A stretch of DNA of 64,000 bases, taken from the NCBI RefSeq assembly GCF_004798665.1, contig NZ_CP039292.1:806001-870000 (forward strand). The letters are read 5' to 3'. Shown piece after piece: positions 1-26,661 of this stretch. Position 1 is the stretch's first letter; the number at the start of each line of letters is the position of its first letter. This DNA comes from Actinomyces procaprae (GTDB lineage: Bacteria; Actinomycetota; Actinomycetes; Actinomycetales; Actinomycetaceae). The notes under the pieces are model-generated. The model saw only the letters and a list, made by a program, of their open reading frames with translations, searched no databases and was not told the DNA's origin. A program made the translations under genes and the position numbers.

Positions 1-992
1 AGACGGTCCGGGTGCTCAACCTGCTGCGCCTCGACGTGCATGCCGGCGAAGTACAGCGTCAGGAACGGCGCGGTCGGCACCGGCCAGGCGACCCTAGCCG
101 TGCGCACGTCATGGTCCAGCTTTCGCAGGCGGGCAGCCAGGCCATCCACGGCCTGAGCGACGGGCGGCGTCGAGCACGCGCCGGGCATGACCGCATTGGC
201 TGCCAAGAGGATGCGTAGTCGGGGCGGTGGTGCGTCCACGGCGTCAACGAACCGCCGGGTAGGGGCATCGAGCCGCCACCGGTCCACCGGCTCGTTGCCG
301 CTGATGACGTCCATGACCACGGCCAGGTCGTGGGCGGTGCGCGTGAGCGCCCCGAAGCCCGCCAGTCCGAACCAGTGGTCCGCCGACGGCGCCGAACTGA
401 CCCGGCCGCGTGTCGGCTTCAGCCCCAGCACCCCGCAGGCCGAGGCCGGAATGCGCAGCGAACCCCCGCCGTCGGAACCCATGGCCACCGGAACCGCGCC
501 GGTGGCGACGGCGACCGCCGAGCCCGCAGAGGAGCCGCCGGGGGAGCGTGCAGGGTCCCAGGGGTTCAGGCAGTCGTCGTGATGGGCGGACTCTCCCACC
601 GGGAACTGGCCGAACTCGGGCATATTGGTGCGCCCGACGATGATCGCCCCCGCCTGCCGCAGGCGCCCGACGACGGCGCAGTCCGCCCGGGCGGGACTGC
701 TATTGCCTCGGCCGCCAAGTGTGGTGACTTCCCCGGCGACGTCGTACTCCTCCTTGACCGCCACCGGCACGCCGGCGAGCGGTCCGGCTGCGCCCGGGCC
801 GGCTGCCGCGATGCGCCGGTCGAGGGCATCGGCCTCCCGCAGGGCGGCTTCGCGGCGCACCACGGTGAAGGCGTTGAGATTCGGGTCCAGTGCGTCAATG
901 CGTTCCAGCGCGGCCTGGATCGTGGCCCGGGCGGTGATGCTCCCGGCGCTGACGGCACGGGCGATGTCGACGGCGTTGCGCGGAATGGTCAT
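1..992 (-). CDS. Amidase signature family enzyme (C-terminal end outside the window)
   Basis: Hydrolyses a carbon-nitrogen amide bond; the substrate cannot be told from sequence. The reading frame is open from an ATG at 992 to the window edge, so about 330 N-terminal residues are present and the C-terminus is missing (family members are usually 450-500 aa). The Ser-cisSer-Lys triad is visible: Lys80 in GVPVAVKEEYD, Ser155 in PGGSSAGSAVAVATG and Ser178 in SDGGGSLRIPASACG. It resembles amidase/AtzF/GatA-type proteins, but no GatB or GatC gene is adjacent, so a stand-alone amidase is more likely than the amidotransferase subunit. It is divergent from ilvD across a 291-bp gap in which I see no other gene. 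Confidence 0.9.
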   Translation of the reverse strand, partial: MTIPRNAVDIARAVSAGSITARATIQAALERIDALDPNLNAFTVVRREAALREADALDRRIAAAGPGAAGPLAGVPVAVKEEYDVAGEVTTLGGRGNSSPARADCAVVGRLRQAGAIIVGRTNMPEFGQFPVGESAHHDDCLNPWDPARSPGGSSAGSAVAVATGAVPVAMGSDGGGSLRIPASACGVLGLKPTRGRVSSAPSADHWFGLAGFGALTRTAHDLAVVMDVISGNEPVDRWRLDAPTRRFVDAVDAPPPRLRILLAANAVMPGACSTPPVAQAVDGLAARLRKLDHDVRTARVAWPVPTAPFLTLYFAGMHVEAQQVEHPDR

Positions 993-6464: not shown

Positions 6465-6627
6465 ACGTAAGATCTGCCGACTTCGGTACGTAAGATCTAC
6501 CGACCTCGGTACGTAAGATCTACCGACTTCGGTACGTAAGATCTACCGACCTCGGTACGTAAGATCTACCGACCTCGGTACGTAAGATCTACCGACCTCG
6601 GTATGTAAGATCTACCGACCTCGGTGA
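6465..6627. repeat. Array of seven 23-bp palindrome-rich repeats after ilvA
   Basis: Seven direct copies of a 23-bp unit built from CTCGGTACGTAAGATCT plus ACCGAC, with C/T changes at the first position and one TATGTA variant. Each unit carries the short palindromes TACGTA and AGATCT and the interrupted palindrome ACCGA-GG-TCGGT. The array ends 24 bp from the ilvA stop codon. Other arrays of this family lie at 12,796, 19,746, 26,596 and 33,505. Confidence 0.9.
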
Positions 6628-6651: not shown

Positions 6652-8226
6652 TCAGCGGGCCAGGAAGAAGCGGGCGGAGGGGTCGTCCGTCTCCTCGTGG
6701 TAGGCGTAGCCGAGCCGGTCCATGTGCTCGGTCAGCTCGGCATCGTCCGGGCCGGCCTCGAAGGCCGTCAGGATGCGCCCGTAGTCGGCGCCATCGGTGC
6801 GGTAGTGGAACAGGGTGATGTTCCAGCGGGTCCCCAGGATCTCCAGGAAACGGGTCAGCGCCCCGGGGGACTCCGGGAACTCGAAGCTGAACAGCCGCTC
6901 CACCAGGCCCTCCGGGGCGCGCCCGCCGATCATGGAGCGCACATGCACCTTGGCGAGCTCGTCCTCGGTCAGGTCCACCACGCCGTAGCCGGCGGCCTCC
7001 AGGTCGGCGACGATCTCGCGGCGCTCGTCGCGTCCGCGAGTGAGCCGCACGCCCACAAAGATCCGGGCCGGTGCGCCCGCGGGGGCGGAGGCCGAGACCC
7101 GGTAGTTGAACTCGGTGACCGCCCGGCCGCCGAGCACGGAGGCGAAGCGCAGGAACTCGCCCTGCACCTCCGGGATGGTCACCCCCAGGATGGCCTCGCG
7201 CTGCTCGCCGATCTCGGCGCGCTCGGAGATATAGCGCAGCTGATGGAAGTTCAGATTCGCGCCCGACAACACGCAGGCCAGCCGCTCGCCGGCGAGGTAG
7301 TGCGCGGCCACGTACTGCTTCAGCCCCGCCAGGGCAACAGCGCCGCTCGGCTCCGGCACGGCGCGCAGGTCCTCGAACAGGTCGCGCACAGCGGCGGAGA
7401 CCTCATCGGAGGAGACGGTGACCACGTCGTCGAGCAGCTGCGCGCACAGGCGGAAGGTCTCATCCCCGATGCGGCGCACCGCCACACCCTCGGCGAACAG
7501 GCCGACGTGCTCGAGCGTCACCGGCTCCCCGGCGGCCAGGGCGGCATTCAGGCAGGCGGACTCCTCGTGCTCCACGCCGATTACCTGCACCTGCGGCATC
7601 AGCTGCTTGATCAGCACGGCGATGCCGGAGACCAGGCCGCCGCCGCCCACGGGCACGAACACGCGATCCAGATCGGCGTCCTGCTGAATCATCTCCAAGC
7701 CAATGGTGCCCTGGCCGGCGATGACGCGGGGATCGTCGAAGGGAGCGATGTAGGTCAGCCCCTCCGCCTGGGCCAGGCGCAGCGCCTCGGCCTTGGCGGC
7801 GTCGAAGTTGTCCCCGCTCAGCAGCACCTCGCCGCCCAGGGCGCGCACGGCGTCGACCTTGATGCGGGGGGTGACGGTGGGCATGACGATCAGTGCGCGC
7901 ACCCCCAGCAGGGAGGCGGAGCGGGCGACCCCCTGGGCGTGGTTGCCGGCGGAGGCGGTCACCACGCCGCGCTCGCGCTCGGCGTCGGACAGGGAGCGCA
8001 TGGCGTTGTAGGCGCCGCGGATCTTGAAGGAGTGGACCGCCTGCAGGTCCTCGCGCTTGACCTCAACCGTGTTGCCCAGGCGGGTCGACAGCGTGGGCAT
8101 CGGCTGTAGGGGGGTGTGCTCGGCGGCCTCATAGACGGGGGCGCGCAGAATCTCCCGCAGGTAGCGGGCGCCGTCCCAGGGGGAGTCGGGGTCGGCGTGG
8201 TTTCCGTTGCTTCCAGCATCGCTCAC
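6652..8226 (-). CDS. ilvA: Threonine ammonia-lyase, biosynthetic (threonine deaminase)
   Basis: PLP enzyme converting L-threonine to 2-oxobutanoate and ammonia, the committed step of isoleucine synthesis. 524 aa: a fold-type II catalytic domain (about 1-350) with the PLP lysine in VHSFKIRGAYNAM (Lys68), the phosphate-binding VPVGGGGLVSG loop and TASAGNHAQGVA. The C-terminal regulatory half (about 350-524) has two ACT-like subdomains, as in isoleucine-inhibited biosynthetic enzymes. The downstream side carries the 23-bp repeat array; the upstream side is divergent from the FMN reductase gene. Confidence 0.97.
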   Translation of the reverse strand: MSDAGSNGNHADPDSPWDGARYLREILRAPVYEAAEHTPLQPMPTLSTRLGNTVEVKREDLQAVHSFKIRGAYNAMRSLSDAERERGVVTASAGNHAQGVARSASLLGVRALIVMPTVTPRIKVDAVRALGGEVLLSGDNFDAAKAEALRLAQAEGLTYIAPFDDPRVIAGQGTIGLEMIQQDADLDRVFVPVGGGGLVSGIAVLIKQLMPQVQVIGVEHEESACLNAALAAGEPVTLEHVGLFAEGVAVRRIGDETFRLCAQLLDDVVTVSSDEVSAAVRDLFEDLRAVPEPSGAVALAGLKQYVAAHYLAGERLACVLSGANLNFHQLRYISERAEIGEQREAILGVTIPEVQGEFLRFASVLGGRAVTEFNYRVSASAPAGAPARIFVGVRLTRGRDERREIVADLEAAGYGVVDLTEDELAKVHVRSMIGGRAPEGLVERLFSFEFPESPGALTRFLEILGTRWNITLFHYRTDGADYGRILTAFEAGPDDAELTEHMDRLGYAYHEETDDPSARFFLAR

Positions 8227-8291
8227 ACTCTCAGCCTAACTGGGGGCCGGTGTTGGCATCGCAAGCCGTTCTAGAAGTCGAGTCGATGAGT

Positions 8292-8325
8292 ATGAGCAAG
8301 CTCATTGAAGTGTCTATATGTAGAC
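8292..8325. promoter_or_regulatory. Palindromes in the ilvA / FMN reductase divergent region
   Basis: Two close dyads: ATGAGC-AA-GCTCAT at 8292-8305 and GTCTA-TATG-TAGAC at 8312-8325, in the 165-bp gap between divergent starts. They are well placed to be repressor sites for the reductase (start 8392). No local regulator gene is adjacent, so the binding protein is unknown. Confidence 0.4.
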
Positions 8326-8391
8326 TGGGACGTATGACCTAGAGTCCGATCTGCTTGATTTGCTTCCAACTGTGCTTCCAAGGAGTACAAC

Positions 8392-8949
8392 ATGACCAAG
8401 ATCGCCGTGATCACCGGTTCCATCCGCCCCAACTCCGTGGGTGGCCCCGTCGCCCAGTGGGTTGCCGAGAGGGCCAACACCGTTGCGGGCGTCGAGGCCA
8501 CCGTCCTCGAGCTCGCCGACTTCAACCTGCCGGTCTTCGCCGAGGAGCTGCCCCCGATGGCCGCCCCCGCCAAGGACCCGGCCGCGGTGAAGTGGAACGA
8601 GACCCTGGCGGCTTACGACGCCTACGTCTTCGTGACCCCGGAGTACAACCACTCCGTCCCGGGCGCGCTGAAGAACGCGATTGACTTCATCACCCCGTCC
8701 GTGCTGGCCAACAAGGCCGTCGGCCTGGTCGGCTACTCCTTCTCCGCCGGCCACCGGCCGATCGAGGCCCTGCGCCTGATTCTGTCGAACTTCACCACCG
8801 GCGTGGTGGGGCCGCAGGTCAACCTGCACCTGGCCACCGACTTCGAGAACATGTCCAGCTTCGCCCCGGCCGCCTTCCACGACAGCGAGGTCCCCGCGAT
8901 GGTTGAGGCAATCGTCGCCCAGGACCGGGCGCTGGCCGCGCTGCGCTGA
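8392..8949 (+). CDS. NAD(P)H-dependent FMN reductase
   Basis: 185-aa flavodoxin-fold flavoprotein of the NADPH-dependent FMN reductase (YieF/ChrR/azoreductase-like) family; reduces FMN, quinones or similar electron acceptors in the cytoplasm. The phosphate-binding loop is GSIRPNSVG (residues 9-17) and the family signature PEYNHSVPGALKNAIDF is at 83-99. AAGGAG lies upstream of the ATG. It is a single-gene unit ending in two strong hairpins. Confidence 0.92.
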   Translation: MTKIAVITGSIRPNSVGGPVAQWVAERANTVAGVEATVLELADFNLPVFAEELPPMAAPAKDPAAVKWNETLAAYDAYVFVTPEYNHSVPGALKNAIDFITPSVLANKAVGLVGYSFSAGHRPIEALRLILSNFTTGVVGPQVNLHLATDFENMSSFAPAAFHDSEVPAMVEAIVAQDRALAALR

Positions 8950-9004
8950 CCCCGCCCCGGCGGGGTTCAGCCCCGCGGCGCACGCTCAGGCAGGCCGCGC
9001 CCAA

Positions 9005-9060
9005 CCTCCGTAATCGCCACTTATCCCTGCAATGGCGGGCGAAAGTGGTGATTATCCGGA
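9005..9060. repeat. Long imperfect hairpin downstream of the FMN reductase
   Basis: CTCCGTAATCGCCACTT pairs with AAGTGGTGATTATCCGGAG across a loop holding CAATGGCGGGCG. It lies in the 284-bp gap between two convergent genes and just before a second hairpin. Its role may be termination; it may also be a small dispersed repeat. Confidence 0.5.
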
Positions 9061-9075
9061 GTGGGCCGGTAATGC

Positions 9076-9132
9076 GATAAGGGGTCTCCCGTGTGCGGCC
9101 GAGGTCGCGGCGCACACGGGAGACCCCTTATC
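9076..9132. terminator. Perfect 22-bp inverted repeat, probable bidirectional terminator
   Basis: GATAAGGGGTCTCCCGTGTG(CG) at 9076-9097 is exactly complementary to 9111-9132 with a 13-nt loop, followed on the top strand by CATTTTG. It lies between the convergent FMN reductase gene and the ABC-class ATPase gene, where a terminator for both would be expected. Confidence 0.7.
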
Positions 9133-9233
9133 CATTTTGAGATCATTCGAGAAACCGCATGATTCCGCGGTTTCCCCTGACCCGTAGGAAAAACGAGCGT
9201 GCGGGGCGACGCCGAGCGCCGCCCCGCACGCGC

Positions 9234-11924
9234 TCAGGCCAGCTTGAGCCTGCGGTAGCGGTTGACCGCCGCCGCCACGTCAACCATGCGCGGACGCACC
9301 AGGAAGGCCGGGCGGCGATCCAGCGCGTCCAGGCCCTCGTCGTCCAGCAGCGCGTCCAGGTCCTCCAGGCACTCGGCCAGCGTCGACTCCCCGTCGAAGC
9401 GCTGCTCCAAAAGCGCCCGCAGCGCGTAGGCCACGGCCTCCGCCTGCCCGGAGTCGACGACCCCGGCGACGTCGGAGATGTCGATGTCCTCCCGGTCCAG
9501 CGTGAGCGAGTCGGTGCCCCGTGCGCGCGTGCGTACCGGGCCGCGCTGGGTGCGCTGCGAGGGCAGCGGCACCCGCGGGGACTGCATGGGGAAGTCGGCC
9601 AGTGCCGTAGTCTCCCGCGGCTGTGCCGCGGCCACCTCGGCGGCACGCTGGGTGGCGTCATGCAGCACGTAGGAGTCCAGCAGCAGCACCCGGTCCGCCA
9701 CGTCCAGGTAGTCCCCGGATCCGCCCATCACCAGCACCGTGGACACGCCTGCCTCGGCCAGCGCGCCCACGCGGTCCACGAAGGGAGTGATCGGCTCCTG
9801 GTCATCAGACACCAGCGTGCGCATGCGTGCATCACGGATCAGCAGGTTGGTGGCGGAGGTGTCCTCATCCAGCAGCAGCGCGGACGCGCCCGCCTCAATC
9901 GACTCCACGATGGAGGCCGCCTGTGAGGTCGAGCCCGAGGCGTTGGTGGTGGTGAAGGAGGCGGTGTCCCGCTCTCCGGGCAGGTGGGAGATGAAGGGGG
10001 TCAGGTCGACGCCGGTCACCGCCCGCCCGTCGGCGGCCCGCACCTTGACGGCATCGGGAACCGTGGCCACCAGCTCGCGGCCGTCGCCCGGGACGTGGGG
10101 GTAGACGCCCCGCTCGATCGCGCTCAGCAGCGTGGACTTGCCGTGGTAGCCGCCGCCGACGACGAGTGTTACGCCGGAGCCGATGGCGGTGCCGCGCACC
10201 TCGCCGGCGTGCGGCAGGGTCACGGTCGCCGCCAGCGAATCGGGGGCGCTCAGGGGGACGGCGCCCTCCTCCATGGGGGCGTTGCTGACGCCGGAGCGGC
10301 GCGGCAGGATCGAGTCGTCCGCAAGGAAGGACACCCAGCCGTTGTCGAGCACCGCCTGAGTCAGGGCCCGGTGGTCCTCCAGGGTGGCGACGTGCTCCAG
10401 CAGGCGCTCGGCCCGCTCCCCGGTCAGGTCCAGGGCCGCGTTGACCTCGCGGGTCAGGTCGTGGCTGAAGATGTTGGCGGCCTCCCGGCCGCGAATGGTG
10501 CGGCCGCGGGCCGGCAGCGCCACGCGGGCGCGGATCTCGATGATGACGCCTGCGGGGGCCTTGCGCTCGTTGTCGGCGTCGGCACCGGGTGCGTCCGCGT
10601 CGTCCGCATCAGCCTCGGCGTCTGCGGCGGAGGCTGCGGACGCGGGGGAGGAGGCCGACTCCGCGGCCGTGTCGGTTGCGGGGGCGGCGACCTCTTCGGG
10701 GTCGGCTGTCTGGGTTGAGCCGATGGCTGCGGCGAATGCGTCCGCTGTGTCCGTGTCAGTGTCCTCGGCGGGGGCCGTGGTCTCCTCGGCGGCGTCGCCC
10801 TCCTCGGACTCCGTGAGCACCGTGAAGAGGTCGACGACGGCGCTGTCCTGCCCGTCCTCAGCGGGTGAGCCGTCCGTGTTGGCGGCAGCGGCCGCAGCGG
10901 CGTCGGACTGGGCGTCGCCGTCGAGGGCGTCGTCGGACGGTGTGGAGACGATCACCGAGCAGCGCTCGAGGATCTCCTGCCCCGGTGCGGCGATCGACAG
11001 GTTGGTGCCGCGGAAGCCCCGGTGCAGCTCACGGGTGAGGAAGTCGGAGACGGCGATGCGCCGGTCGCGCGTGGACAGCAGGTCCGCGTCCTGCAGCAGC
11101 TTCAGGCCGGGCAGGTCGGCCGGGGCCTGGATGCGGATGCGCGTGGGCGGTGCGTAGGGGTCGGGCTGGACGTAGTCGACGTGCAGGGTCCAGCCCTCCG
11201 TGGCGCGGTAGTGGCCGATGGTGTCGCGGTAGGCGCCGTAGGGGCGGTTGTCCAGCACGTGCAGGTAGTCCACCAGGTCGCTGAGCGTGCCTGTGCGCGG
11301 GCCCTTGTCGTAGCGGCGGCCTTCGCGGCGGTCGTCGCGGCCGTAGCCCTGACCGCGACGGTCACGGTCATACCCCCGGTCCCGGCCGTAGCCGCGGTCG
11401 TAGCGGCCCTCGCGGTTGCCCTCGCGCCGGTCGCCGTAGCCGCGGTTGTTGTCCCGGTCGTAGCTGCGGTTGCCGCGGTCATATCCCCGGTTGCCGCGGT
11501 CGTAGCCGCGGCGGTCGCTGTAGTCGCGGTCTCGGTCGTAGCCCCGGCCGCCCCGGTTGTCCCGGTCGTAGCCGCCGCGGTCGTAGCGGCCCTCGCGGTT
11601 GCCCTCGCGCCGGTCGCCGTAGCCGCGGTTGTTGTCCCGGTCGTAGCTGCGGTTGCCGCGGTCATATCCCCGGCTGCCGCGCTCGTAGCCGCGGCGGTCG
11701 CTGTAGTCGCGGTCTCGGTCGTAGCCCCGGCCGCCCCGGTTGTCCCGGTCATAGCCGCCGCGGTCATCATAGCCGCGCCCGCCGTCGCCCCGGTAGCCGC
11801 GTTCGCTCCGCTCGCCCCGGTCATAACCCCGGTCGTTTCCCCTGTCATATCGGTCGTATCGGTCGCGACGGCTGCCGCGATCCCCGTAGCCGCGGCTGTC
11901 TGTGTAGTCACTGCGCTCAGTCAT
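9234..11924 (-). CDS. ABC-class P-loop ATPase (MRB1590-like family) with a long RGG/RGY-rich N-terminal tail
   Basis: 896 aa. Residues 1 to about 205 are low-complexity Arg/Gly/Asp/Tyr sequence (DRGNRGYDRG, GYGDRREGNREGRYDRG). The conserved ATPase follows: GTLSDLVDYLHVLDNRPYGAYRDT, Walker A VGGGYHGKSTLL (Lys596), the serine-rich signature SGSTSQAASI and Walker B ALLLDEDTSATN (Asp686). These match the ABC_ATPase family (COG3044), whose trypanosome member MRB1590 binds RNA through this fold. An Ala/Asp/Glu-rich insertion (about 345-465) interrupts the domain. RGG-type tails bind RNA and can form condensates, so an RNA-related role is inferred. The start at ATG 11924 is at the beginning of the repeats; an open extension upstream is antisense to lysE-like sequence and rejected. 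Confidence 0.88.
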   Translation of the reverse strand: MTERSDYTDSRGYGDRGSRRDRYDRYDRGNDRGYDRGERSERGYRGDGGRGYDDRGGYDRDNRGGRGYDRDRDYSDRRGYERGSRGYDRGNRSYDRDNNRGYGDRREGNREGRYDRGGYDRDNRGGRGYDRDRDYSDRRGYDRGNRGYDRGNRSYDRDNNRGYGDRREGNREGRYDRGYGRDRGYDRDRRGQGYGRDDRREGRRYDKGPRTGTLSDLVDYLHVLDNRPYGAYRDTIGHYRATEGWTLHVDYVQPDPYAPPTRIRIQAPADLPGLKLLQDADLLSTRDRRIAVSDFLTRELHRGFRGTNLSIAAPGQEILERCSVIVSTPSDDALDGDAQSDAAAAAAANTDGSPAEDGQDSAVVDLFTVLTESEEGDAAEETTAPAEDTDTDTADAFAAAIGSTQTADPEEVAAPATDTAAESASSPASAASAADAEADADDADAPGADADNERKAPAGVIIEIRARVALPARGRTIRGREAANIFSHDLTREVNAALDLTGERAERLLEHVATLEDHRALTQAVLDNGWVSFLADDSILPRRSGVSNAPMEEGAVPLSAPDSLAATVTLPHAGEVRGTAIGSGVTLVVGGGYHGKSTLLSAIERGVYPHVPGDGRELVATVPDAVKVRAADGRAVTGVDLTPFISHLPGERDTASFTTTNASGSTSQAASIVESIEAGASALLLDEDTSATNLLIRDARMRTLVSDDQEPITPFVDRVGALAEAGVSTVLVMGGSGDYLDVADRVLLLDSYVLHDATQRAAEVAAAQPRETTALADFPMQSPRVPLPSQRTQRGPVRTRARGTDSLTLDREDIDISDVAGVVDSGQAEAVAYALRALLEQRFDGESTLAECLEDLDALLDDEGLDALDRRPAFLVRPRMVDVAAAVNRYRRLKLA
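11401..11766 (-). repeat. Tandem 183-bp (61-codon) duplication inside the RGG tail
   Basis: The segment beginning TAGCGGCCCTCGCGGTTGCC at 11,401 recurs at 11,584 in the same frame, so 61 residues of the Arg/Gly/Tyr-rich tail are doubled almost perfectly. Within each copy there are shorter repeats of YDRGN/RGYDRD type. Such an array can change length by slippage or recombination. Confidence 0.85.
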
Positions 11925-12039
11925 GCCCTGATATTGGCACATTTCCGGCGCAACTCCCGACGCGCGTGCCGACGACGGCGGGTCGCGCGTGCGCTCGCCC
12001 GGCTTACGAGGTGTTGCCGGAACCCATAGGGTCACCCCC

Positions 12040-12759
12040 ATGACGCTCCTGTTCGCCCCGTCGACTTCCCTCCAAGTCCTGGCTGCTGCAGGGACCGTCG
12101 CAGCCGCCCCCGCGCTCGGGGGCCTGGTCTCTGCCCCGTTGGCGGTTTCCGCGTCCTGGTCCGGCTTCGCGCCCGCCGTCACCGGCTTCGCCACGGGGCT
12201 GGGGCTGATCGTGGCCATCGGAGCGCAGAACGCCAGGGTGCTGCGCCAGGGGGTGCGGCGGGAGCATGTGGGGCTGGTGGTTGCCATCTGCGCGCTCAGC
12301 GACCTGGCACTGATCGCTATCGGCACCGGCGGGATCGGCGTGGTCGCCCGCCTGGCACCGTGGGTGCTGGAAGTGCTGCGCTGGGGCGGGGTGCTGTACC
12401 TGCTCGGCTTCGCGATCTCCAGCTTCCGCTCGGCCATGCGCCCGGGCGCGCTTGAGCAGGAACAGGCGCGCCCGGCGTCGTCGGTGGCGCTGACCACCCT
12501 GGCGCTGACCTGGCTGAATCCGCACGTCTACCTCGACACCGTGCTGATGCTGGGCACGGTGACCAACGGCTTCGGGGCGGCCCGGTGGGTGGCCGCGGCC
12601 GGCGCCGGGGCGGCGTCGATCCTGTGGTTCACGGCGCTGGGCCTGGGGGCGCGGGCGCTGTCCGGGCCGCTGTCCAGCCCGCGCACCTGGCGGGTGCTGG
12701 ACGTACTGGTCGGCCTGGTCATGCTGGGGGTGGCACTCCACCTGGCCCTGGGCTCCTGA
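12040..12759 (+). CDS. LysE/ArgO-type amino acid exporter
   Basis: 239-aa inner-membrane protein of the LysE/RhtB superfamily, expected to export lysine, arginine or another amino acid. The family motif GLGLIVAIGAQNARVLRQGV is near residues 50-69, followed by five hydrophobic helices and the TWLNPHVYLDT motif. The N-terminus is about 40 residues longer than usual, so an internal start is possible; ATG 12040 gives the longest plausible protein. The closest relatives by motif are actinobacterial LysE/ArgO. The repeat-bounded island begins 21 bp after the stop. Confidence 0.9.
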   Translation: MTLLFAPSTSLQVLAAAGTVAAAPALGGLVSAPLAVSASWSGFAPAVTGFATGLGLIVAIGAQNARVLRQGVRREHVGLVVAICALSDLALIAIGTGGIGVVARLAPWVLEVLRWGGVLYLLGFAISSFRSAMRPGALEQEQARPASSVALTTLALTWLNPHVYLDTVLMLGTVTNGFGAARWVAAAGAGAASILWFTALGLGARALSGPLSSPRTWRVLDVLVGLVMLGVALHLALGS

Positions 12760-12780
12760 CCGGCGCGGCCGCGTCGCTCG

Positions 12781-12838
12781 TCCGCCCCCACTCACCGAGA
12801 TCGGTAGATCTTACGTGCCGAGGTCGGTAGTTATGGCG
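12781..12838 (+). repeat. Left direct repeat of the lipase/NTPase island
   Basis: TCCGCCCCCACTCACCGAGA and on into CGGTAGAT (12,781-12,809) recurs at 19,736-19,764. The 43-bp stretch 12,796-12,838 (CGAGATCGGTAGATCTTACG to GTTATGGCG) recurs exactly at 19,774-19,816. The core is the same 23-bp palindrome-rich unit as after ilvA. The two copies bracket exactly the lipase and NTPase genes. Confidence 0.88.
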
Positions 12839-12918
12839 TGCTGGTTTGGGCACGTCGGCGACGGGCGATCCATATACTTCCAGCCTGGGCTGCGAGGTGG
12901 CGGGCTGAGGAGGCAGTA

Positions 12919-14322
12919 ATGGTGATGCCGCTGGTGGTGGTGCTTCCCGGGATCGGTGGCAGTGAGCTCGCCGACGACGACGGTCGTTCCGTCTACTCCA
13001 TCAACACGCGAGCACTGCTGACCCGGATACTTGCCCCCGCGGCTTTGGATGCCTCACGTCCCTTGCGCGCCACAGGCCTGATTGGTAGTTATGGCCTGGC
13101 CTGGAAGCAGCTGATTACCGGATACGACGGATTGATGCGCGAGCTGATTGGCGCACTTCAGCTGCGCCCCGAGGTCGTCGCAACCGCGGGGCGGGACCAG
13201 CCGAACCCACTCGTCTCCCTACTGGCCTTCCCGTATGACTTCCGGCAGTCGGTGGGCGCCTGTGCGCAGGCGCTGGACCAGGAGCTGCGGAAGTGGCTTT
13301 ACGGGCGCCCAGTGGTAATGGTGGGACACTCCATGGGCGGTCTGGTGGCCGCCTGTTGGTGGGCGCATCTGAGCGACGGCGTGGACGTCAAGGAGATCAT
13401 CACCCTGGGCACCCCGTTCCGCGGGGCCACCAAGGCGCTCGACTTCCTCGTCAATGGCGTGCATGTGGGCGGACTCGGCCTGCCGGAGATCAGCACGGTG
13501 CTGCGGGGCTGGGACTCGGTGTTCGATCTGCTGCCGCATGCGCAGGTGATCGAGGGGAACAGCGAGAGGAACAGCGGGGGGAACAGGGAGAAGAACCATG
13601 ACGGTCTCTACCCTTTCCAGCTGCCAACGGAGCTGATGGCGGCGGTGCCGGGATTCGCGGAGCGTGCCCGGCGGGCGTATGAGACCAATCAGAGTCTGCA
13701 CAAGGCAATGGTCGCGCGTGCGGAGCGAAATGGCGGGCATCCGTTCACGCACTACTACTCGCAGGGGCACACCACGTCGTCGATGGCCCTGCTGGACGGG
13801 GACCGGCTCGCGGTCAACAAGACTGACCCCGACTGGGTGCCCCGAGGCTGGGAGGCGGGGGATGGCACGGTTCCCAGGTTCTCGGCGATTTCGCGGCTTG
13901 CCGAGCAGGAGCCGCGGGCGTGGCGCCGACTCGCGCGGCGGCACGGAGAACTGGTGGATGAGGTGGCCGTCGTGCAACATGTGCGCGACTACGGGCTCGC
14001 GCCCCTACCCGCGGCGGCCCGTGGCGGAAGCGAAGCAGAAGCCGCCCCTTATCTGCGCCTGGACCTGGATGAGGTGGTGCTGGCGGAGCGGCCGGTGCCG
14101 CTGCGCATCAGTGTGGTGAGTGCCGATGGCGAGCCGCTGCCGGCCGGCGAGGTGGCTGGCAGGGTCGCCAGGGTCGGCTTGCGTGCCGCGGCTGACGGAG
14201 ACTCCTGGGCTGCGGAGTTGCCGCCGCTGTCTGAAGGACTGCATGAACTCAGGATCACCGCGACCGGTGTGCCCGGCGTGGACCGTATTACTACCCGAAT
14301 GAGGATTGGAGCCGTGTCATGA
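12919..14322 (+). CDS. LCAT-like alpha/beta-hydrolase (putative phospholipase/acyltransferase)
   Basis: 467 aa. The N-terminus PLVVVLPGIGGSEL is typical of lecithin:cholesterol acyltransferase-like hydrolases (PF02450). The nucleophile elbow is VMVGHSMGGLVA (Ser138), the acid lies in AGDGTVPRFS (Asp315) and the likely histidine is His354 in VVQHVRDYG; this triad order fits LCAT. Residues about 375-467 form a separate beta-rich domain. No signal peptide is visible, so it should act inside the cell, for example on membrane lipids. Start 12919 is chosen for GAGGAGG six bases upstream. The stop overlaps the next start (ATGA), so it is coupled to the NTPase-TPR gene. Inferred role: effector of a two-gene conflict system. 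Confidence 0.82.
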   Translation: MVMPLVVVLPGIGGSELADDDGRSVYSINTRALLTRILAPAALDASRPLRATGLIGSYGLAWKQLITGYDGLMRELIGALQLRPEVVATAGRDQPNPLVSLLAFPYDFRQSVGACAQALDQELRKWLYGRPVVMVGHSMGGLVAACWWAHLSDGVDVKEIITLGTPFRGATKALDFLVNGVHVGGLGLPEISTVLRGWDSVFDLLPHAQVIEGNSERNSGGNREKNHDGLYPFQLPTELMAAVPGFAERARRAYETNQSLHKAMVARAERNGGHPFTHYYSQGHTTSSMALLDGDRLAVNKTDPDWVPRGWEAGDGTVPRFSAISRLAEQEPRAWRRLARRHGELVDEVAVVQHVRDYGLAPLPAAARGGSEAEAAPYLRLDLDEVVLAERPVPLRISVVSADGEPLPAGEVAGRVARVGLRAAADGDSWAAELPPLSEGLHELRITATGVPGVDRITTRMRIGAVS

Positions 14323-17000
14323 GGGAACCTCTGCGCTGGGACTCCCAGGCCGAACCGACCGCCTTGGCGCAGGTGGTGCACGCGGGCTGGCTGCAGCGCC
14401 TGCTGCGTGCCGAGGATGCACGCCGATTTCCGGGGCCGGGCGGGGGCGTTGGGGTTGGGGCCCTGGCGCGTCGAGTCTTCGAGGGCTTCGTCGAGTTGGG
14501 CATCAGCTACGTGCATGAGCCCGCCGATTCCGGGCCCGGCACGCAGTTGCTGCGCCCGCTAGATGAGGTGGTGTCACTGCACCAGGCGACCTGCCTGGAT
14601 ATGTGCGCGGCCTTTTGCAGCGCGGCGCTGGACGCCGGGGTCTACCCGCTGATCCTGACAATTCGCAAGGAGGGGCGGCGGCACGCACTGGTGCTAGTGC
14701 CGCTGGAGCGGAACTGGTCCAGGGGCTGCGAGCCGGTACTTGAGGCTGGCTTCAGCAGCGAGGTGCTGACTGTCGATGGTGCGCCCGTGGTGCAGCTGCT
14801 CGCGGCACATCCGGGTGATGCCCTGGCCACATGGCTGGCTGTTGATGTGCAGCAGGCGAGTACCGTGGGCGGCTCGGTCGGCGACTGGGAGAGTGCCCTC
14901 GACCGCGGGGCGGAGTATGTGCGCGACTGGCAGTGGGAGGTCTGCGTTGATGTTGGGGGACTGTGCGCGCAACGACGTGCGGACGACTCCTTGCCCCCGG
15001 TGGTGCGGGCGGGGGAGGTGCTGGCGCAGGCGTATACGGAGCTGCCGCAGGACTTCACCGCCCTGCAGCTGATTCGGAGCCGGTACAACGTGGTCCCCTT
15101 CTGCCCGCGGCCGGAGCTGGCCCAGCTGCGCGAGTGGGCGCTCAGCACGGCGGAGGCGGGAAGCGCCTCTGCTGGCTCCGCGGGGGCGAGGACGGCGCCG
15201 GACCTCGCCATTGCCGTGGTGGCGGGCGCGGGCGGTACGGGGAAGACGCGTCTGGCCGCGCAGCTGTGCCACAGTCTCTCGGCCATCGGCTGGTGCACGG
15301 GCTTTGTGCCCAGTACCAGCGAGCTCACCGAGGCGGACCTGGAGGTCTTGGCGGAGCTGACCACGGAGCTGCTGATCGTGGTGGACTACGCCGAGGAGGC
15401 CCGGAAGGAGCAGCTGGCCACCCTGCTGCGGCGCCTGCGGGAGCGGAGGTCGCCCACGCGCATTGTGCTCACCGCGCGGGGCACGGATGTGTGGTGGCAG
15501 CAGTTCCAGGAGGAACTGGTGCAGGACGGCATCCGCCTGGGGCGGACGCTGATGATCGCCGGCCTGGGGCGGCACCCCGACTCCCCACTGCTGTTCCGCA
15601 AGGCGGTGCGCAGGTTCTCTCAGCGGCTGGGCCTGCCTGCGCCCCAGAAGCTGGAGGCGCCTGCGGAGCCGGGGACGACGGCGCTGGAGGTGGTGCTGCG
15701 GGCCTGGTTGGCCGTGGTCGGGCAGGTCGGCGAAGCGGAGGTGCCTGATAGCTCAGTGGGGCGAGAGGCGCTGTTTGACCGCGTTCTGGATGTGGAGTTT
15801 GCGCGCTGGAAGCAGTTCCCGGCCCTGGGCGAGGTCAGTGCTGTGCAGCTGCGGCGGGCGGCGGCGACCGTGAGCCTGCTGGCTCCGCGAGGAGAAACCG
15901 GGGTTGATGAGGTGCTGTCTCGCCTGCCCGAGTGGGCCGGTGCTCCGCGGGAGCGGAGCCGCTTTGCGGAGTTGCTGACCACGGCGCTGCTGCGGCCGGC
16001 AACTGCTGGTGAGGGGGTGTATTTGCAGCCCGACCCGGTGGCGGATCACCTGATCTGCTCGGAATTTGGCGAGGACCCGGGACTGCTTGAGCACATTCTG
16101 CCCGCTGACCTGGAGAGCGATGAGCGCCTGCGGCAGGCGGTCAACGCCTGCGTGGTTCTAACACGCGCGGCCGGCGCTGACCAAGCGGTGGCACAAAGCC
16201 TTGCGAGCGCTGCCCTTCACACGCGCTCACAGCTATGGCGTGAAGCGCTGGACGTTGCACTCACACAGGGAGGTCCCTTCGCAAGTGCGCTTGATGAGCT
16301 CGCCAAGTCCGGCTACGAACTGCCCTTCGCTGAGATTGATGCCGCAATCCCCCTCGGGCATAGTTGGCTCCGAGGCCTGGCGGTGACAGCGGCGCGCCGC
16401 TTGCTGGAGGCCGGGGGCCAAGAACCGGCGCGCCGGGCCGCACTACTCAACAACCTGGCGAACAGATTGTCTGAGGTGGGTCGGCGGGGTGAGGCTCTGG
16501 GGGCGGCTCGTGAGGCGGTGGGGCTGCGGCGGGTGCTGGCCGAGCAGGACCCGGCTGCCTTCACCCCGGACCTGGCGATGTCGTTGAACAACCTGGCGAA
16601 CATGCTGTCTGAGGTGGGCCGGCGGGGTGAGGCGCTGGAGGCGGCCCGTGAGGCGGTGGGGCTGTACCGGGGGTTGGCTGAGCAGAACCCGGCCGCCTAT
16701 GCCTCGGGCCTGGCGGGGTCGTTGAGCAACCTGGCGAACATGCTGTCTGAGGTGGGCCGGCGGGGTGAGGCGTTGGAGGTGGCCCGTGAGGCGGTGGGGC
16801 TGTACCGGGGTCTGGCCGAGCAGAACCCGGCCGTCTTCACCCCGGACCTCGCGACATCGTTGGGAAACCTGGCGATCATGCTGTCTGAGGTGGGCCGGCG
16901 GGGTGAGGCGCTGGAGGCGGCCCGTGAGGCGGTGGACCTGTACCGGGGTCTGGCCGAGCAGAACCCGCCGCCTTTACTCCGGGCCTGGCGGGGTCGTTGA
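14319..17000 (+). CDS. STAND-like P-loop NTPase with TPRs, N-terminal part before a frameshift
   Basis: 893 aa as read. Residues about 75-130 resemble a transglutaminase/papain-like fold: TCLDMCAAFC (Cys92) followed by RRHALVLVPL (His122). The P-loop NTPase follows with Walker A VVAGAGGTGKTRLAAQ (Lys309), Walker B ELLIVVDYAEEA (Asp356) and IVLTARG, then helical sequence, then TPR units from about residue 709. Actinobacterial TPR-NTPases with a LLVVDYAE Walker B are known and fit STAND-type switches. The 46-residue TPR period breaks by one base near 16,967 (GAACCCGCCGCC instead of GAACCCGGCCGCC), so translation ends at 17000. With one base restored the protein would continue into 16997-19762 and total about 1814 aa. 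It overlaps the lipase gene by 4 bp. Confidence 0.8.
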   Translation: MREPLRWDSQAEPTALAQVVHAGWLQRLLRAEDARRFPGPGGGVGVGALARRVFEGFVELGISYVHEPADSGPGTQLLRPLDEVVSLHQATCLDMCAAFCSAALDAGVYPLILTIRKEGRRHALVLVPLERNWSRGCEPVLEAGFSSEVLTVDGAPVVQLLAAHPGDALATWLAVDVQQASTVGGSVGDWESALDRGAEYVRDWQWEVCVDVGGLCAQRRADDSLPPVVRAGEVLAQAYTELPQDFTALQLIRSRYNVVPFCPRPELAQLREWALSTAEAGSASAGSAGARTAPDLAIAVVAGAGGTGKTRLAAQLCHSLSAIGWCTGFVPSTSELTEADLEVLAELTTELLIVVDYAEEARKEQLATLLRRLRERRSPTRIVLTARGTDVWWQQFQEELVQDGIRLGRTLMIAGLGRHPDSPLLFRKAVRRFSQRLGLPAPQKLEAPAEPGTTALEVVLRAWLAVVGQVGEAEVPDSSVGREALFDRVLDVEFARWKQFPALGEVSAVQLRRAAATVSLLAPRGETGVDEVLSRLPEWAGAPRERSRFAELLTTALLRPATAGEGVYLQPDPVADHLICSEFGEDPGLLEHILPADLESDERLRQAVNACVVLTRAAGADQAVAQSLASAALHTRSQLWREALDVALTQGGPFASALDELAKSGYELPFAEIDAAIPLGHSWLRGLAVTAARRLLEAGGQEPARRAALLNNLANRLSEVGRRGEALGAAREAVGLRRVLAEQDPAAFTPDLAMSLNNLANMLSEVGRRGEALEAAREAVGLYRGLAEQNPAAYASGLAGSLSNLANMLSEVGRRGEALEVAREAVGLYRGLAEQNPAVFTPDLATSLGNLAIMLSEVGRRGEALEAAREAVDLYRGLAEQNPPPLLRAWRGR

Positions 17001-18649
17001 GCAACCTGGCGGCCAGGTTGTCTGAGGTGGGCCGGCGGGGTGAGGCGCTGGAGGCGGCCCGTGAGGCGGTGGACCTGTACCGGGGTCTGGCCGAGCAGAA
17101 CCCGGCCGCCTTTACTCCGGGCCTGGCGGGGTCGTTGAGCAACCTGGCGGCCAGGTTGTCTGAGGTGGGCCTGCGGGGTGAGGCGTTGGTGGTGGCTCGT
17201 GAGGCGGTGGGGTTGAGGCGGGGTCTGGCCGAGCAGGATCCGGCCGCCTTTACTCCGGGCCTGGCGGGGTCGTTGAGCAACCTGGCGGCCAGGTTGTCTG
17301 CGGTGGGCCTGCGGGGTGAGGCGTTGGTGGTGGCTCGTGAGGCGGTGGGGCTGTACCGGGGTCTGGCCGAGCAGAACCCGGCCGCCTATGCCTCGGGCCT
17401 GGCGGGGTCGTTGAACAACCTGACGGCCAGCTTGTCTGCGGTGGGCCTGCGGGGTGAGGCGCTGGAGGCGGCCCGTGAGGCGGTGGGGCTGCGGCGGGTG
17501 CTGGCCGAGCAGAACCCGGCCGCCTTCACCCCGGACCTGGCGATGTCGTTGAACAACCTGGCGATCAGCTTGTCTGAGGTAGGTCGGCGCGATGAGGCGC
17601 TGGAGGCGGCCCGTGAGGCGGTGGGGCTGCGGCGGGTGCTGGCCGAGCAGAACCCGGCTGCCTTCACCCCGGACCTCGCGACATCGTTGGGAAACCTGGC
17701 GAACAGATTGTCTGAGGTAGGCCGGCGCGATGAGGCGCTGGAGGCGGCCCGTGAGGCGGTGGACCTGTACCGGGGTCTGGCCGAGCAGAACCCGGCCGCC
17801 TTCACCCCGGACCTGGCAATGTCGCTGAACAACCTGGCGATCAGCTTGTCCGAGGTAGGTCGGCGCGATGAGGCGCTGGAGGCGGTCCGTGAGGCGGTGG
17901 GGCTGTACCGGGGTCTGGCCGAGCAGAACCCGGCCGCCTATGCCTCGGGCCTGGCGGGGTCGTTGAACAACCTGACGGCCAGCTTGTCTGCGGTGGGCCT
18001 GCGGGGTGAGGCGCTGGAGGCGGCTCGTGAGGCGGTGGGGCTGCGGCGGGTGCTGGCCGAGCAGGACCCGGCTGCCTTCACCCCGGACCTGGCGATGTCG
18101 TTGAACAGCCTGACGGCCAGCTTGTCTGAGGTAGGTCGGCGCGATGAGGCGCTGGAGGCGGCCCGTGAGGCGGTGGGGCTGTACCGGGGTCTGGCCGAGC
18201 AGAACCCGGCCGCCTATGCCTCGGGCCTGGCGGGGTCGTTGAACAACCTGACGGCCAGCTTGGCTGAGGCGAGCCAGCGCGATGAGGCGTTGGAGGTGGC
18301 CCGTGAGGCGGTGGGGCTGTACCGGGGTCTGGCCGAGCAGGACCCGGCCGCCTTCACCCCGAACCTGGCGAGCTCGTTGAACAACCTGGCGAACAGCTTG
18401 GCTGAGGCGAGCCAGCGCGATGAGGCGTTGGAGGTGGCCCGTGAGGCGGTGGGGCTGCGGCGGGGGTTGGCTGAGCAGGACCCGGCCGCCTATGCCTCGG
18501 GCCTGGCGGGGTCGTTGAACAACCTGGCTAAGTTCCTGTCTGAGGTGGGGCAGCGGGGTGAGGCTCTGGAGGCGGCCCGTGAGGCGGTGGGGCTGTACCG
18601 GGTGCTGGCCAAGCAGGATCCGGCTGCCTTCACCCCGGAACTGGTTATA
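16443..18649 (+). repeat. Sixteen near-identical 138-bp TPR repeats
   Basis: Unit starts are at 16443, 16581, 16719, 16857, 16994, 17132, 17270 and then every 138 bp to 18512; the only irregular step is 137 bp (16857 to 16994), which is the frameshift. Blocks of more than 80 bp are identical between non-adjacent units, for example 17,387-17,471 and 17,939-18,023, four units apart. This implies recent recombination within the array. Confidence 0.93.
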
Positions 18650-19762
18650 TCGCTTCACGTCCTGGCGAGTCTTCTAGCGGAGGGCGGCAACGACGAGGAA
18701 GCGCTTTCGGTGTTCACGGCGCACAGCGAGAGCTTCAGCCCCTCCACCCGCGCCCGCCTCCTGCTCGCCCGTGCCAACTGGCGCGCTCACGGCAAGGCAG
18801 AAGACCTGGTCCAAGCGGCCCAAATGGCGGACGACTCGGACGATCCGGCGCTACTCGGCCCGGCCCGCCGCGAGGTAGCACAAGCAATCCGGACTGCCGA
18901 GGTGGACATTCACCCAGAGGCGCTTCCGGCCTGGGCATTGCTGCCCCCACAGGACCCACGGATGGAACTGCTACAGGGATGGCTGAAGTGTTCGGACATC
19001 TCCGAACACGCAGACTTCCTGGAATGGAACTGCCCCGATCCCACAGCGGATGACGTGGCTTTCTACGCTGCCGTCGCCGAGCTGTATGCGGACATCCCTG
19101 CGATCGGGGTGCTGGCGCAAATGGTTGAGAACATCGCGGAGACGGGCATCGAGCCGGTGGCCGAGCAGCTGCGACTCGTTGCACGTGCCGATTCGCTTGC
19201 CCAGCGCTGGCTGGGCGCCCACCAGTCCGGCAGCGGCAGCAGCTTCCTGCGCGAGCAGCTCTCCGCCGCGGACGGAACACCTCGGGACCAGCCTGCCTGG
19301 GAACGGAACCTGTCCCATCCACAGATGCGCGACGCCGTGACTTCCGTACTGGATGACAATCTCCCAGAAGCACTGGCCCAGCGCATGCGCGCCGTACTGG
19401 ACCTCGCTTTGCTCGCCGACCCGGAGCTCGCCTATGCGGTCCACGACAGCTCCGAGGGTGCGGAGGATGCCCTCCAAGAACTGCTCGAGGCCCACAACTG
19501 GCGAGCACTCGCGGCGGCGGTGAAGGTGCGCGCGGAGCTATCGGAGGGCACCTACGGGCGCGTAGCCCTGGCGGTTTCCGCGGCTGCGGCAGGTGATGTG
19601 GACGAGGCCCTCACGCGTGTGCAACCCGTCTGGCAGGGGGACCCGGTAGACTGCCGCCTTATCGACGACCTCCTCGCACATGCGGCGCTCGACCCCGAGT
19701 GCCCCGAGGGCCTGACCGAACTCCGCACCCGCCTGTCCGCCCCCACTCACCGAGATCGGTAG
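16997..19762 (+). CDS. TPR array and C-terminal part of the STAND-like NTPase, after the frameshift
   Basis: 921 aa in the frame that continues the TPR array. Its first codon TTG (16,997) overlaps the upstream stop as TTGA; reinitiation is conceivable, but the simplest reading is the second half of one gene. It holds 12 near-identical 46-residue TPRs of SLNNLA-LSEVG-RGEALEAARE type, one degenerate unit (about 18,650-18,790) and about 370 residues of C-terminal helical sequence with further TPR-like helices. The last residues SAPTHRDR and the TAG stop are supplied by the right direct repeat. TPR arrays of this kind bind protein partners and may be the sensor. Confidence 0.75.
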   Translation: MSNLAARLSEVGRRGEALEAAREAVDLYRGLAEQNPAAFTPGLAGSLSNLAARLSEVGLRGEALVVAREAVGLRRGLAEQDPAAFTPGLAGSLSNLAARLSAVGLRGEALVVAREAVGLYRGLAEQNPAAYASGLAGSLNNLTASLSAVGLRGEALEAAREAVGLRRVLAEQNPAAFTPDLAMSLNNLAISLSEVGRRDEALEAAREAVGLRRVLAEQNPAAFTPDLATSLGNLANRLSEVGRRDEALEAAREAVDLYRGLAEQNPAAFTPDLAMSLNNLAISLSEVGRRDEALEAVREAVGLYRGLAEQNPAAYASGLAGSLNNLTASLSAVGLRGEALEAAREAVGLRRVLAEQDPAAFTPDLAMSLNSLTASLSEVGRRDEALEAAREAVGLYRGLAEQNPAAYASGLAGSLNNLTASLAEASQRDEALEVAREAVGLYRGLAEQDPAAFTPNLASSLNNLANSLAEASQRDEALEVAREAVGLRRGLAEQDPAAYASGLAGSLNNLAKFLSEVGQRGEALEAAREAVGLYRVLAKQDPAAFTPELVISLHVLASLLAEGGNDEEALSVFTAHSESFSPSTRARLLLARANWRAHGKAEDLVQAAQMADDSDDPALLGPARREVAQAIRTAEVDIHPEALPAWALLPPQDPRMELLQGWLKCSDISEHADFLEWNCPDPTADDVAFYAAVAELYADIPAIGVLAQMVENIAETGIEPVAEQLRLVARADSLAQRWLGAHQSGSGSSFLREQLSAADGTPRDQPAWERNLSHPQMRDAVTSVLDDNLPEALAQRMRAVLDLALLADPELAYAVHDSSEGAEDALQELLEAHNWRALAAAVKVRAELSEGTYGRVALAVSAAAAGDVDEALTRVQPVWQGDPVDCRLIDDLLAHAALDPECPEGLTELRTRLSAPTHRDR

Positions 19763-19816
19763 ATGTTACGTGCCGAGATCGGTAGATCTTACGTGCCGAG
19801 GTCGGTAGTTATGGCG
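19736..19816 (+). repeat. Right direct repeat of the lipase/NTPase island
   Basis: Second copy of the left repeat (12,781-12,838) with one additional 23-bp unit. It begins inside the last codons of the NTPase-TPR gene and provides its stop codon. Downstream sequence leads to msrA. Confidence 0.85.
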
Positions 19817-19874: not shown

Positions 19875-20603
19875 CTACACCGCCTCGGGCGGCAGCACCT
19901 CCGTCTGTGCGGGCACGTTCGCGATCCCGATCGGGCAGGTGATCCCGTTGGGGCCGTGGTTGCAGTAGCCGTCGGGGTTCTTCTCCAGGTAGCCCTGGTG
20001 GTAGTCCTCCGCCAGGTAGAAGGGCCCGCCGAACTCGTCGTACAGCTCCGTGGCCGGGGCGATCGTGGTCACGCAGGTTCCGCGACCCAGCCGGGTCAGC
20101 TCCCCCTGGAAGGCGGTGCGGATCGCCAGGGCTGCATTGGCCTGCGCCGACGTCGTCGTCCACACCGCCGAGCGGTACTGGGTGCCGACGTCATTGCCGT
20201 GCCGGTTCAGCTGCGTGGAGTCGTGGTTCTCCCAGAAGGTGCGCAGCAGGCTCTCACCGCCCTGCCCGCACACGGTCGGGTCATAGGCCACGCGCACCGT
20301 CTCGGCGTGACCGGTGGCGCCGGTGCACACCTCCCGGTAGGTGGCATTGGGGGTGGTGCCGCCCATGTAGCCGACGGCGGTTGCCACCACGCCGGGCTGG
20401 CGCCACAGGAAGCGCTCCACGCCCCAGAAGCAGCCACCCGCCAGATAAATGACCTGAGTGCCCTCGGGCCACGGTCCGTCCAGCGGCGTGCCCAGGACTA
20501 CATGCTCGCCCGGGCTTGGCAGGAGGGTGGTCTCCCGGCCGGGAATCTGAGGATTGCGGGACGGGCGGGGCGTCGTCGTGCCTGACTGTGCGGATACTGC
20601 CAT
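19875..20603 (-). CDS. msrA: Peptide methionine (S)-S-oxide reductase
   Basis: Reduces methionine-S-sulfoxide in proteins using thioredoxin; oxidative damage repair in the cytoplasm. 242 aa. The catalytic motif GGCFWGVERF has Cys58, with Tyr/Glu partners expected in the GYMGGTTPNATYREVCTG block. STQLNRHGNDVGTQYRS and DEFGGPFYLAEDYHQGYLEK are diagnostic. Additional cysteines near the C-terminus may resolve the disulfide. The 30-residue N-terminal extension matches other actinobacterial and E. coli-type long MsrA forms. Confidence 0.97.
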   Translation of the reverse strand: MAVSAQSGTTTPRPSRNPQIPGRETTLLPSPGEHVVLGTPLDGPWPEGTQVIYLAGGCFWGVERFLWRQPGVVATAVGYMGGTTPNATYREVCTGATGHAETVRVAYDPTVCGQGGESLLRTFWENHDSTQLNRHGNDVGTQYRSAVWTTTSAQANAALAIRTAFQGELTRLGRGTCVTTIAPATELYDEFGGPFYLAEDYHQGYLEKNPDGYCNHGPNGITCPIGIANVPAQTEVLPPEAV

Positions 20604-25950: not shown

Positions 25951-26595
25951 GCGGGAAGTCGCGGCTCTGCCTGTCAGTCTGCCAAGTTCTTAGTCGTTGT
26001 CGGCGCCGATCCCTGAGGCCTGTTGCACCTCTTCCGGTTTGAAGGCACGGAGTTGGGGGTGCGGTCCGGGCGTGTGTACCGCGCCGTCGGGCCTAGCGCA
26101 GTCGTGTCTGGCACCGCCGTCGGCCGGGGCGGGCGCTCCCTGGTCGCGAACGAGCCGAAGGGCGCGGGTGGCGAGGCCGGTGACGCCTTCGTGCCCGTGG
26201 CGGGGGTCGTCTGTTACGCCACTTCGTCGTTGGGTACGCCGGTTTGGCGTTTGCTGAAGGCTCCGGAACCCTCAGTAGACACCAAACCGGCGTAGTAGAC
26301 GTCAAAGGGGCGTACTCAAACCCCTCCCGTGCCTGTGCGCTCACAGCATCCCCTACGCAGGCGAGGCGGAGACCGGCTCCTTAGGTGCGGGGTGTGGTTG
26401 AGCTCTGGCGGGTGTGGGGTGTCCGAGCTCGGCGCAAAGGCGGTTGGTGGCCGCTGGGGCCGATCTGGGGCATCGTGCTCTACCGTTTGTGGTGTCGGGC
26501 GCCAGCGGTGGGGTGCGGGGCGGGGCGGTGGACTGAGCCGCAAACAGCCACACATCCCGAACACCGCCGCGCCCTCAAGCCGGAAGAGCACGCAA
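25951..26595. repeat. Gene-free repeat region between PhoH and fructokinase genes
   Basis: Contains the hairpin repeat with 26-nt arms at 26,235-26,260 and 26,269-26,294 (TACGCCGGTTTGGCGT to CTGAAGG), the same family as at 6,113 and 46,621, and boundary motifs CTCTTCCGGTTTG (26,030) and its inverse AGCCGGAAGAGC (26,577). Between about 26,375 and 26,560 is G-rich sequence of the 5.4-kb type. No credible gene was seen. Confidence 0.6.
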
Positions 26596-26661
26596 CTTCT
26601 ACCGACCTCGGTACGTAACTTCTACCGACCTCGGTACGTAACTTCTACCGATCTCGGTGAA
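26596..26661. repeat. 23-bp palindrome-rich array after the fructokinase gene
   Basis: About two and a half units of the 23-bp repeat, here with ACTTCT in place of AGATCT. The array ends 5 bp from the fructokinase stop codon and shares the junction CTCGGTGAAGGGGT with the ilvA array. Confidence 0.88.

Follow-up and report, generated by a model that had tools for sequence, protein, structure and literature searches.

Pairing of an alpha/beta-hydrolase with a caspase was noted in the VMAP/MoxR-vWA ternary systems, as set out in the available part of Kaur et al. 2020 (PMC7159879), and alpha/beta-hydrolases supposed to act on membrane lipids, as well as papain/transglutaminase-like peptidases, are among the effectors that passages on bacterial death-domain conflict systems report (PMC8195603). 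Some variants of the gasdermin/CARD-NLR systems carry phospholipases in place of gasdermin, according to excerpts of PMC13236601, and the mechanism of the nuclease-protease pairs of Hachiman, AVAST, Lamassu, DRT and Canu is given as experimentally proven in passages of PMC12799240. Here we describe a two-gene unit of Actinomyces procaprae, consisting of an LCAT-type lipase (gene 1) and a STAND NTPase (gene 2), which lies in a stretch of 64,000 nucleotides (contig NZ_CP039292.1, positions 806,001 to 870,000; hereafter the window, with its own numbering) of a genome assembled as a 3.6-Mb single contig. Both genes are real, each has one match in this genome, and they overlap through ATGA between a LysE-type exporter and msrA; an earlier note on this DNA had placed them in this way, and the sequence and Pfam (PF01810 and PF01625 for the flanks) agree.

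We think it somewhat probable, from the sequences and by analogy with the systems above, that the pair forms an NLR-like cell-suicide unit, in which a sensor-activated protease would release a membrane-attacking lipase as a means of abortive immunity. The TPR array would sense a trigger, probably made by a phage, upon which the nSTAND5 NTPase would oligomerize and the N-terminal transglutaminase-like cysteine protease would turn active; the protease may then cut or otherwise free the co-translated lipase, whose phospholipase-like domain would attack the cell's own membrane. Release by a protease is suggested because lipase and protease are constant and the sensor is exchangeable, as in the proven nuclease-protease pairs (passages of PMC12799240), and because the hydrolase-caspase pairing had already been noted for VMAP systems (available part of PMC7159879). 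As a class the unit is ordinary, being a STAND-controlled effector, but to our knowledge this domain combination and the breadth of the lipase-protease link are new. PADLOC holds no model matching the pair, and the exact pair was not recognized from titles and the beginnings of abstracts in a literature mostly without subscription papers, which does not establish its absence from print.

The product of gene 1 is, as judged from its sequence, a lipase of the LCAT/lysosomal-PLA2 type with predicted phospholipase-like activity. It matches LCAT (PF02450; 33.2 bits against a cut-off of 21), and a search of PDB sequences with the A4 lipase profile finds the group XV PLA2 4x90 (E 9.5e-13). Foldseek with the whole model ranks other folds and the Ig-like domain on top, while a second look at the model with VIA-align gives a PLA2/LCAT match. 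The start codon, ATG at 12919, is preceded by GAGGAG and the first hydrolase strand begins immediately; inspection by eye, without a predictor, reveals no apparent signal peptide, in line with the initial view. Ser138, Asp315 and His342 are invariant across nine diverse lipases. The earlier note had proposed a Ser138-Asp315-His354 triad, of which the first two residues stand. We place the catalytic histidine at His342, because His342 is invariant in the 26 close as well as the nine diverse lipases, whereas the invariance of His354 is confined to the close set, and the triad is hence most likely Ser138-Asp315-His342. Of the 120 listed homologues, 117 carry an Ala-(Ala/Ser)-Arg-Gly motif in the linker region, which the model shows as a loop of low confidence; as a guess, the conserved Arg-Gly in residues 364-373 could be an activation or cleavage site in the Actinomyces branch.

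Gene 2 encodes, in order, a transglutaminase-like cysteine-peptidase domain, an nSTAND5 NTPase, a helical arm, a TPR array with 138-nt units and a C-terminal domain. In the peptidase domain C92, H122 and D176 are invariant in 24 close sequences, and among nine diverse domains C92 and H122 remain invariant while position 176 is D or E. A distant relative (L079) gives weak matches to Transglut_core, DUF553 and Peptidase_C93 (E 3e-4 to 3e-3), and NCBIfam anti-phage ProA (NF058533) reaches 25 bits over 69 positions in this domain, short of its cut-off of 1500 over 1903 positions. A 'protease-like domain' had been reported here, which is present and can now be specified as probably transglutaminase-like by the conserved Cys-His-acid set and the relative L079. 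Residues 1-227 are hardly covered by structure rows in the VIA-align of the STAND model, which is hence uninformative on the peptidase fold. The P-loop switch that had also been proposed is borne out by GAGGTGKT and by nSTAND_NTPase5 (PF25199; 45.3 bits against a cut-off of 34, E 1e-11), which matches all seven aligned members (E<=0.1). Foldseek ranks the SIR2-STAND protein EfAvs5 (E 1.7e-7) first for the STAND model; a profile of the protein against PDB sequences returned nothing at E<=0.01.

The evidence for a protease partner comes from loci chosen by lipase sequence alone. A transglutaminase-like or caspase-like gene is adjacent in 21 of the 24 genome loci opened. The transglutaminase-like type accounts for 12 (the window, L025, L026, L028-L031, L077-L080 and L136), called by profile match, except L136, which was called by motif and alignment and whose contig stops on the lipase side. 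The caspase-like type, with His-Gly and Cys motifs, accounts for nine (L075, L081, L082, L129-L133 and L135), and eight of these are fused to a STAND-type NTPase. The Pfam caspase model is above cut-off in L075 (5e-21) and L081 (1e-6) and near it in L135 (0.003), and the other six were called from aligned His-Gly and Cys motifs ahead of the P-loop NTPase. One lipase search gave 12 places at E<=6e-35, all of which were opened but one fragment (G435 contig 25); weaker partial matches served as control only. The sensor parts vary among these loci and are exchangeable; the lipase goes with the protease domain and not with the NTPase, a stronger pattern than the pairing proposed in the earlier note. 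At L080 (G544; 7367-10836) a protein without a Pfam match, VMAP-like by eye, comes after the lipase and bears a transglutaminase-like domain. The L136 cluster (G435) combines the lipase with a transglutaminase-like protein, an AAA ATPase and a TIR protein that has three EAD1 stretches. VMAP-like and MoxR-like are labels given by eye at these two loci, where Pfam gave no VMAP match.

Plasmids show a similar arrangement. This independent set is made up of all nine records in which a lipase was matched at E<=1e-5 (13 weaker records were left out), and a protease gene adjoins the lipase in eight: three transglutaminase-like, by motif (Streptomyces NBC_00057, Rhizobium johnstonii and Sphaerospermopsis), three CHAT (Rhodococcus, Bradyrhizobium and Rhizobium acidisoli), one caspase-STAND (Streptomyces NBC_00015, by motif, divergent) and one trypsin-like (R. 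ruizarguesonis). The eight annotated plasmid lipases pass the LCAT cut-off, and the sole plasmid match to the N-terminal 706 residues of the STAND protein is the Streptomyces gene beside the lipase. In the R. acidisoli plasmid (L141) the lipase-CHAT pair directly adjoins TniQ/TniB transposition genes. Taken with the genome loci, the adjacency extends across three phyla. We tentatively propose, at slightly less than even chances, that LCAT/PLA2-type pro-lipases are a module for membrane killing that is both portable and gated by a protease, a counterpart at the membrane to the nuclease-protease pairs. In at least three bacterial phyla this module would have been combined several times over with proteases of the transglutaminase-like, caspase, CHAT and trypsin-like types, carried on sensors of STAND-TPR, STAND-WD40, HEAT and VMAP-like build.

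The transglutaminase-like fold serves several chemistries, and the domain may instead crosslink, deamidate or dock the lipase, which would be switched on by binding the oligomerized STAND protein without proteolysis. Proteases of other folds beside the lipase could likewise act as docking partners, but what the partner groups (transglutaminase-like, caspase-like/CHAT and trypsin-like) have in common is proteolysis, and we regard a non-cutting role as rather unlikely.

The NTPase itself is not a constant partner of the lipase, as judged from the loci compared. In a class search the STAND alignment matched in at least 46 of 394 genomes (a lower bound, two candidates per genome being scored), and 53 of the 59 places start at alignment position 202 or later, i.e. 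without most of the peptidase domain. Six nSTAND5 loci without this domain (L083-L088) include two with TIR, one with a trypsin-like N-terminus just below the Pfam cut-off (L088) and three without N-terminal assignment; none has a lipase match. Similarly, none of 28 NTPase-only loci with 1.5-kb flanks has a lipase or peptidase profile match. The TIR-nSTAND5-TPR proteins at L083 and L084 have the window's NTPase type, with no lipase match in the 18-19 kb opened. Because nSTAND5 proteins without the peptidase domain carry TIR (L083, L084) or trypsin-like (L088) domains instead, the N-terminus looks like an effector slot.

Several observations weigh against a protease-released lipase acting in immunity. 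No peptidase-domain match was found by Pfam in the window protein or the seven aligned members, and PADLOC gave no Avs match in the window, only a weak JetB match in the TPR part. Among the nine caspase-type loci, three have their genes in different directions (convergent in L075, divergent in L082 and L130), as does the divergent plasmid locus H6; the EAD1-trypsin gene of L134 is in the cluster yet non-adjacent, L076 is unclear, the contig of L032 breaks off within the locus, and the Embleya plasmid (H8) has no protease neighbour among its open frames, judged by eye. The control is limited: none of 21 loci with partial LCAT-like matches had a profile match of the transglutaminase-like or caspase-STAND kind within 1.5 kb, but the caspase profile had itself been built from the positives, and the first G217 locus and those of G191, where the protease is farther off or different, also escaped this test. 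Finally, proximity to defence genes had been suggested as a check, and none was seen by eye around seven Actinomyces-type loci, where the neighbours look housekeeping.

Such neighbours would suit an ordinary lipid-metabolism or stress-response lipase with a regulatory NTPase, and LCAT-family hydrolases have metabolic roles elsewhere. However, the lipase is present in only 2 of 37 same-genus genomes, its own included, an empty site exists, and relatives stand beside CHAT, caspase, TIR and AAA/EAD1 genes; a metabolic role is in our opinion very unlikely. The empty site was found by way of msrA, which is present in 49 of 49 congeners, ten of which were opened (the six best matches and four others). 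In seven, LysE and msrA are direct neighbours and the pair is missing, with 45-233 bases between matched ends, as the idea of an inserted unit had anticipated, and A. ruminicola has the pair at this site with repeat arrays on both sides; of the remaining two, LysE lies elsewhere in one and is without a match in the opened stretch of the other. Gain or loss of the unit therefore took place at a single spot. Other relatives have the pair at other junctions with neighbours that look housekeeping by eye, while some plasmid relatives have Mrr-type endonuclease, AbiE or Tni transposition genes within 7 kb. A search of 50,697 phage records for phage-borne copies gave no match at E<=1e-5. The two genes do occur together, as had been proposed: the pair is present in 6 of 7 genome-contig lipase loci, the seventh being cut by the contig end, and a family search of 151 genomes, in which not every candidate was scored, found the NTPase in three, always beside the lipase, and a fourth genome with two lipases but without that NTPase.

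The unit is bounded on both sides by repeats sharing a 44-bp exact match and a 15-bp leader, and the term 'repeat-bounded' is thus correct as geometry. It is not specific to the island: the 23-bp tandem repeat family has 139+160 = 299 exact core sites genome-wide, and in the window five arrays with 19 matches (<=2 mismatches) against 0.11 expected. The direct repeats were considered as an att site or transposon flank, which this genome-wide family rules out, and they do not define a mobile element. In A. ruminicola both island sides share one leader, by eye, that is different from the window's, and leaders look homogenized within each genome. Three empty sites (L091, L093 and L094) have degenerate repeat-like units by eye, without the exact pattern. 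For the immunity logic of the earlier note, patchy presence, the empty site and the tie of lipase to STAND are favourable, and the lack of visible defence neighbours and of repeats defining a mobile element is not.

The 16 TPR units first counted were recovered as 16 in-register copies (about 16410-18750). Twelve units from 16961 on have DNA identities of 77-99% (mean 85%), and the FxSxx-COOH system TPR protein (NF040586) matches the TPR part alone, with 54.4 bits against an unreached cut-off of 300. Lengths of the 119 listed homologues partly follow a 46-residue ladder (1248, 1294, 1340, 1386, 1432, 1478 and 1524), which seems to reflect variation in repeat number, as expected of a sensor. 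High internal identity and one-unit steps would also suit allorecognition or cell-cell conflict, in which an array of variable length would read signals of self or of neighbours, and mismatched cells would be killed by the lipase. Among the listed homologues, the nearest named relatives of the lipase are from Actinomyces procaprae (86% identity) and A. ruminicola (80%), with another relative at 94%; many close homologues come from metagenome-type sources and a few are labelled Actinomyces oris or naeslundii, both oral species, which would fit such a role. However, a signal peptide is not apparent and a gene for delivery was not noticed; a lipase that stays in the cytosol would act in the cell that makes it, and we find allorecognition decidedly unlikely.

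As sequenced in this strain, the STAND gene is broken: one repeat spacing, at 137, falls one short of 138, and the reading frame shifts at about 16.82-17.0 kb. Because of this break in the sensor gene the local copy may be inactive, although the break may be a sequencing error within near-identical repeats. It could also mark a decaying island, a relic without present function here, as could the early end of the P. hongkongensis STAND frame (L029, 12732-14515) beside an IS21-type transposase-like frame (by eye) and the stop in a second copy of G098. Decay is scarcely probable, given that the long frame is unbroken in A. ruminicola, A. oricola, [Pseudopropionibacterium] massiliense, G098, G177, G307 and one Streptomyces plasmid. 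Second STAND copies, partial or stop-containing, adjoin the intact pair at L030 (7884-9893) and L077 (7133-11470), which suggests tandem duplication and decay of the extra copies.

Table 1. Features of the unit and its surroundings in the window (lipase parts in residues)
Feature	Position	Strand	Basis
23-bp family arrays	6469-6623, 12796-12838, 19751-19816, 26594-26656, 33505-33590		
LysE-type exporter, left flank	11989..12759	+	PF01810
Left repeat array: 15-bp leader, two 23-bp-type units	12780..12838	.	
Lipase, gene 1, 467 amino acids	12919..14322	+	PF02450
Lipase hydrolase domain	residues about 1-362		
Lipase linker	residues 364-373		low model confidence
Lipase C-terminal Ig-like domain	residues 375-467		
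STAND gene 2, whole, frame broken inside repeat array	14319..19762	+	
First open frame of STAND gene, 893 amino acids, overlaps lipase stop by ATGA	14319..17000	+	
Transglutaminase-like cysteine peptidase domain; Cys92, His122, acidic Asp176	14319..15023	+	conservation
nSTAND5-type P-loop NTPase domain, GAGGTGKT	15036..15998	+	PF25199
Helical arm between NTPase and TPR array	15999..16433	+	all-helical in model
TPR array, 138-nt (46-residue) units, 16 copies in register, frame break ~16.82-17.0 kb	16410..18754	+	TPR_10
Second open frame: remaining TPR array and C-terminal domain, ends inside right repeat	16997..19762	+	
Right repeat array: same leader, three units	19735..19816	.	
msrA, right flank	19875..20603	-	PF01625

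Elsewhere in the window, a long open frame (9234-12497, minus strand) has an Arg/Gly/Tyr/Asp-rich repetitive part with internal direct repeats, and its later part looks ATPase-like by eye. No tRNA or Rfam element was found within the window.

If the proposed release of a lipase by a protease is true, bacterial immunity gains a proteolytically controlled lipase next to the known pore-formers and nucleases so controlled, and lipase-protease adjacency becomes a key with which to look for defence systems not yet described. The compact version of two genes, whose array varies by single units, would also be a tractable model of NLR-like sensor diversification.

Transglutaminase-like peptidases are given as a rare VMAP N-terminus in the available part of PMC7159879, a text in which no word begins with LCAT or lipase, whereas here such a peptidase sits on nSTAND5-TPR, and the flanks are LysE and msrA with no MoxR or vWA gene; the related locus L136, unlike the window, has an AAA gene and an EAD1-TIR gene. 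In the death-domain systems the effectors are fused to adaptor or other domains (passages of PMC8195603), but here the genes are separate and overlapping, without a known adaptor domain. With the lysosomal phospholipase A2/LCAT family the window lipase shares the fold and the order of GxSxG and GDGTV, while it is bacterial, lacks an apparent signal peptide and adds an Ig-like C-terminal domain and a protease-STAND partner. Avs5 (SIR2-STAND; PDB 9jap), the top Foldseek match, has a similar effector-STAND-repeat layout, but its SIR2 effector is in the same chain, its NTPase is nSTAND3 and not nSTAND5, and a lipase partner is unmentioned in the passages of PMC12931631. The gasdermin/CARD-NLR systems differ in the families of NTPase and protease (no search for CARD or gasdermin was made here), yet passages of PMC13236601 describe a comparable STAND-controlled proteolysis of a membrane-destroying effector. 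The nuclease-protease pairs use an experimentally proven nuclease of the metallo-beta-lactamase type, in contrast to our LCAT-type lipase known from sequence; as described in passages of PMC12799240, they resemble the present unit in their separate, usually upstream effector gene, in a protease carried on varied sensors, in recurrent acquisition, and in the occurrence of a caspase version too.

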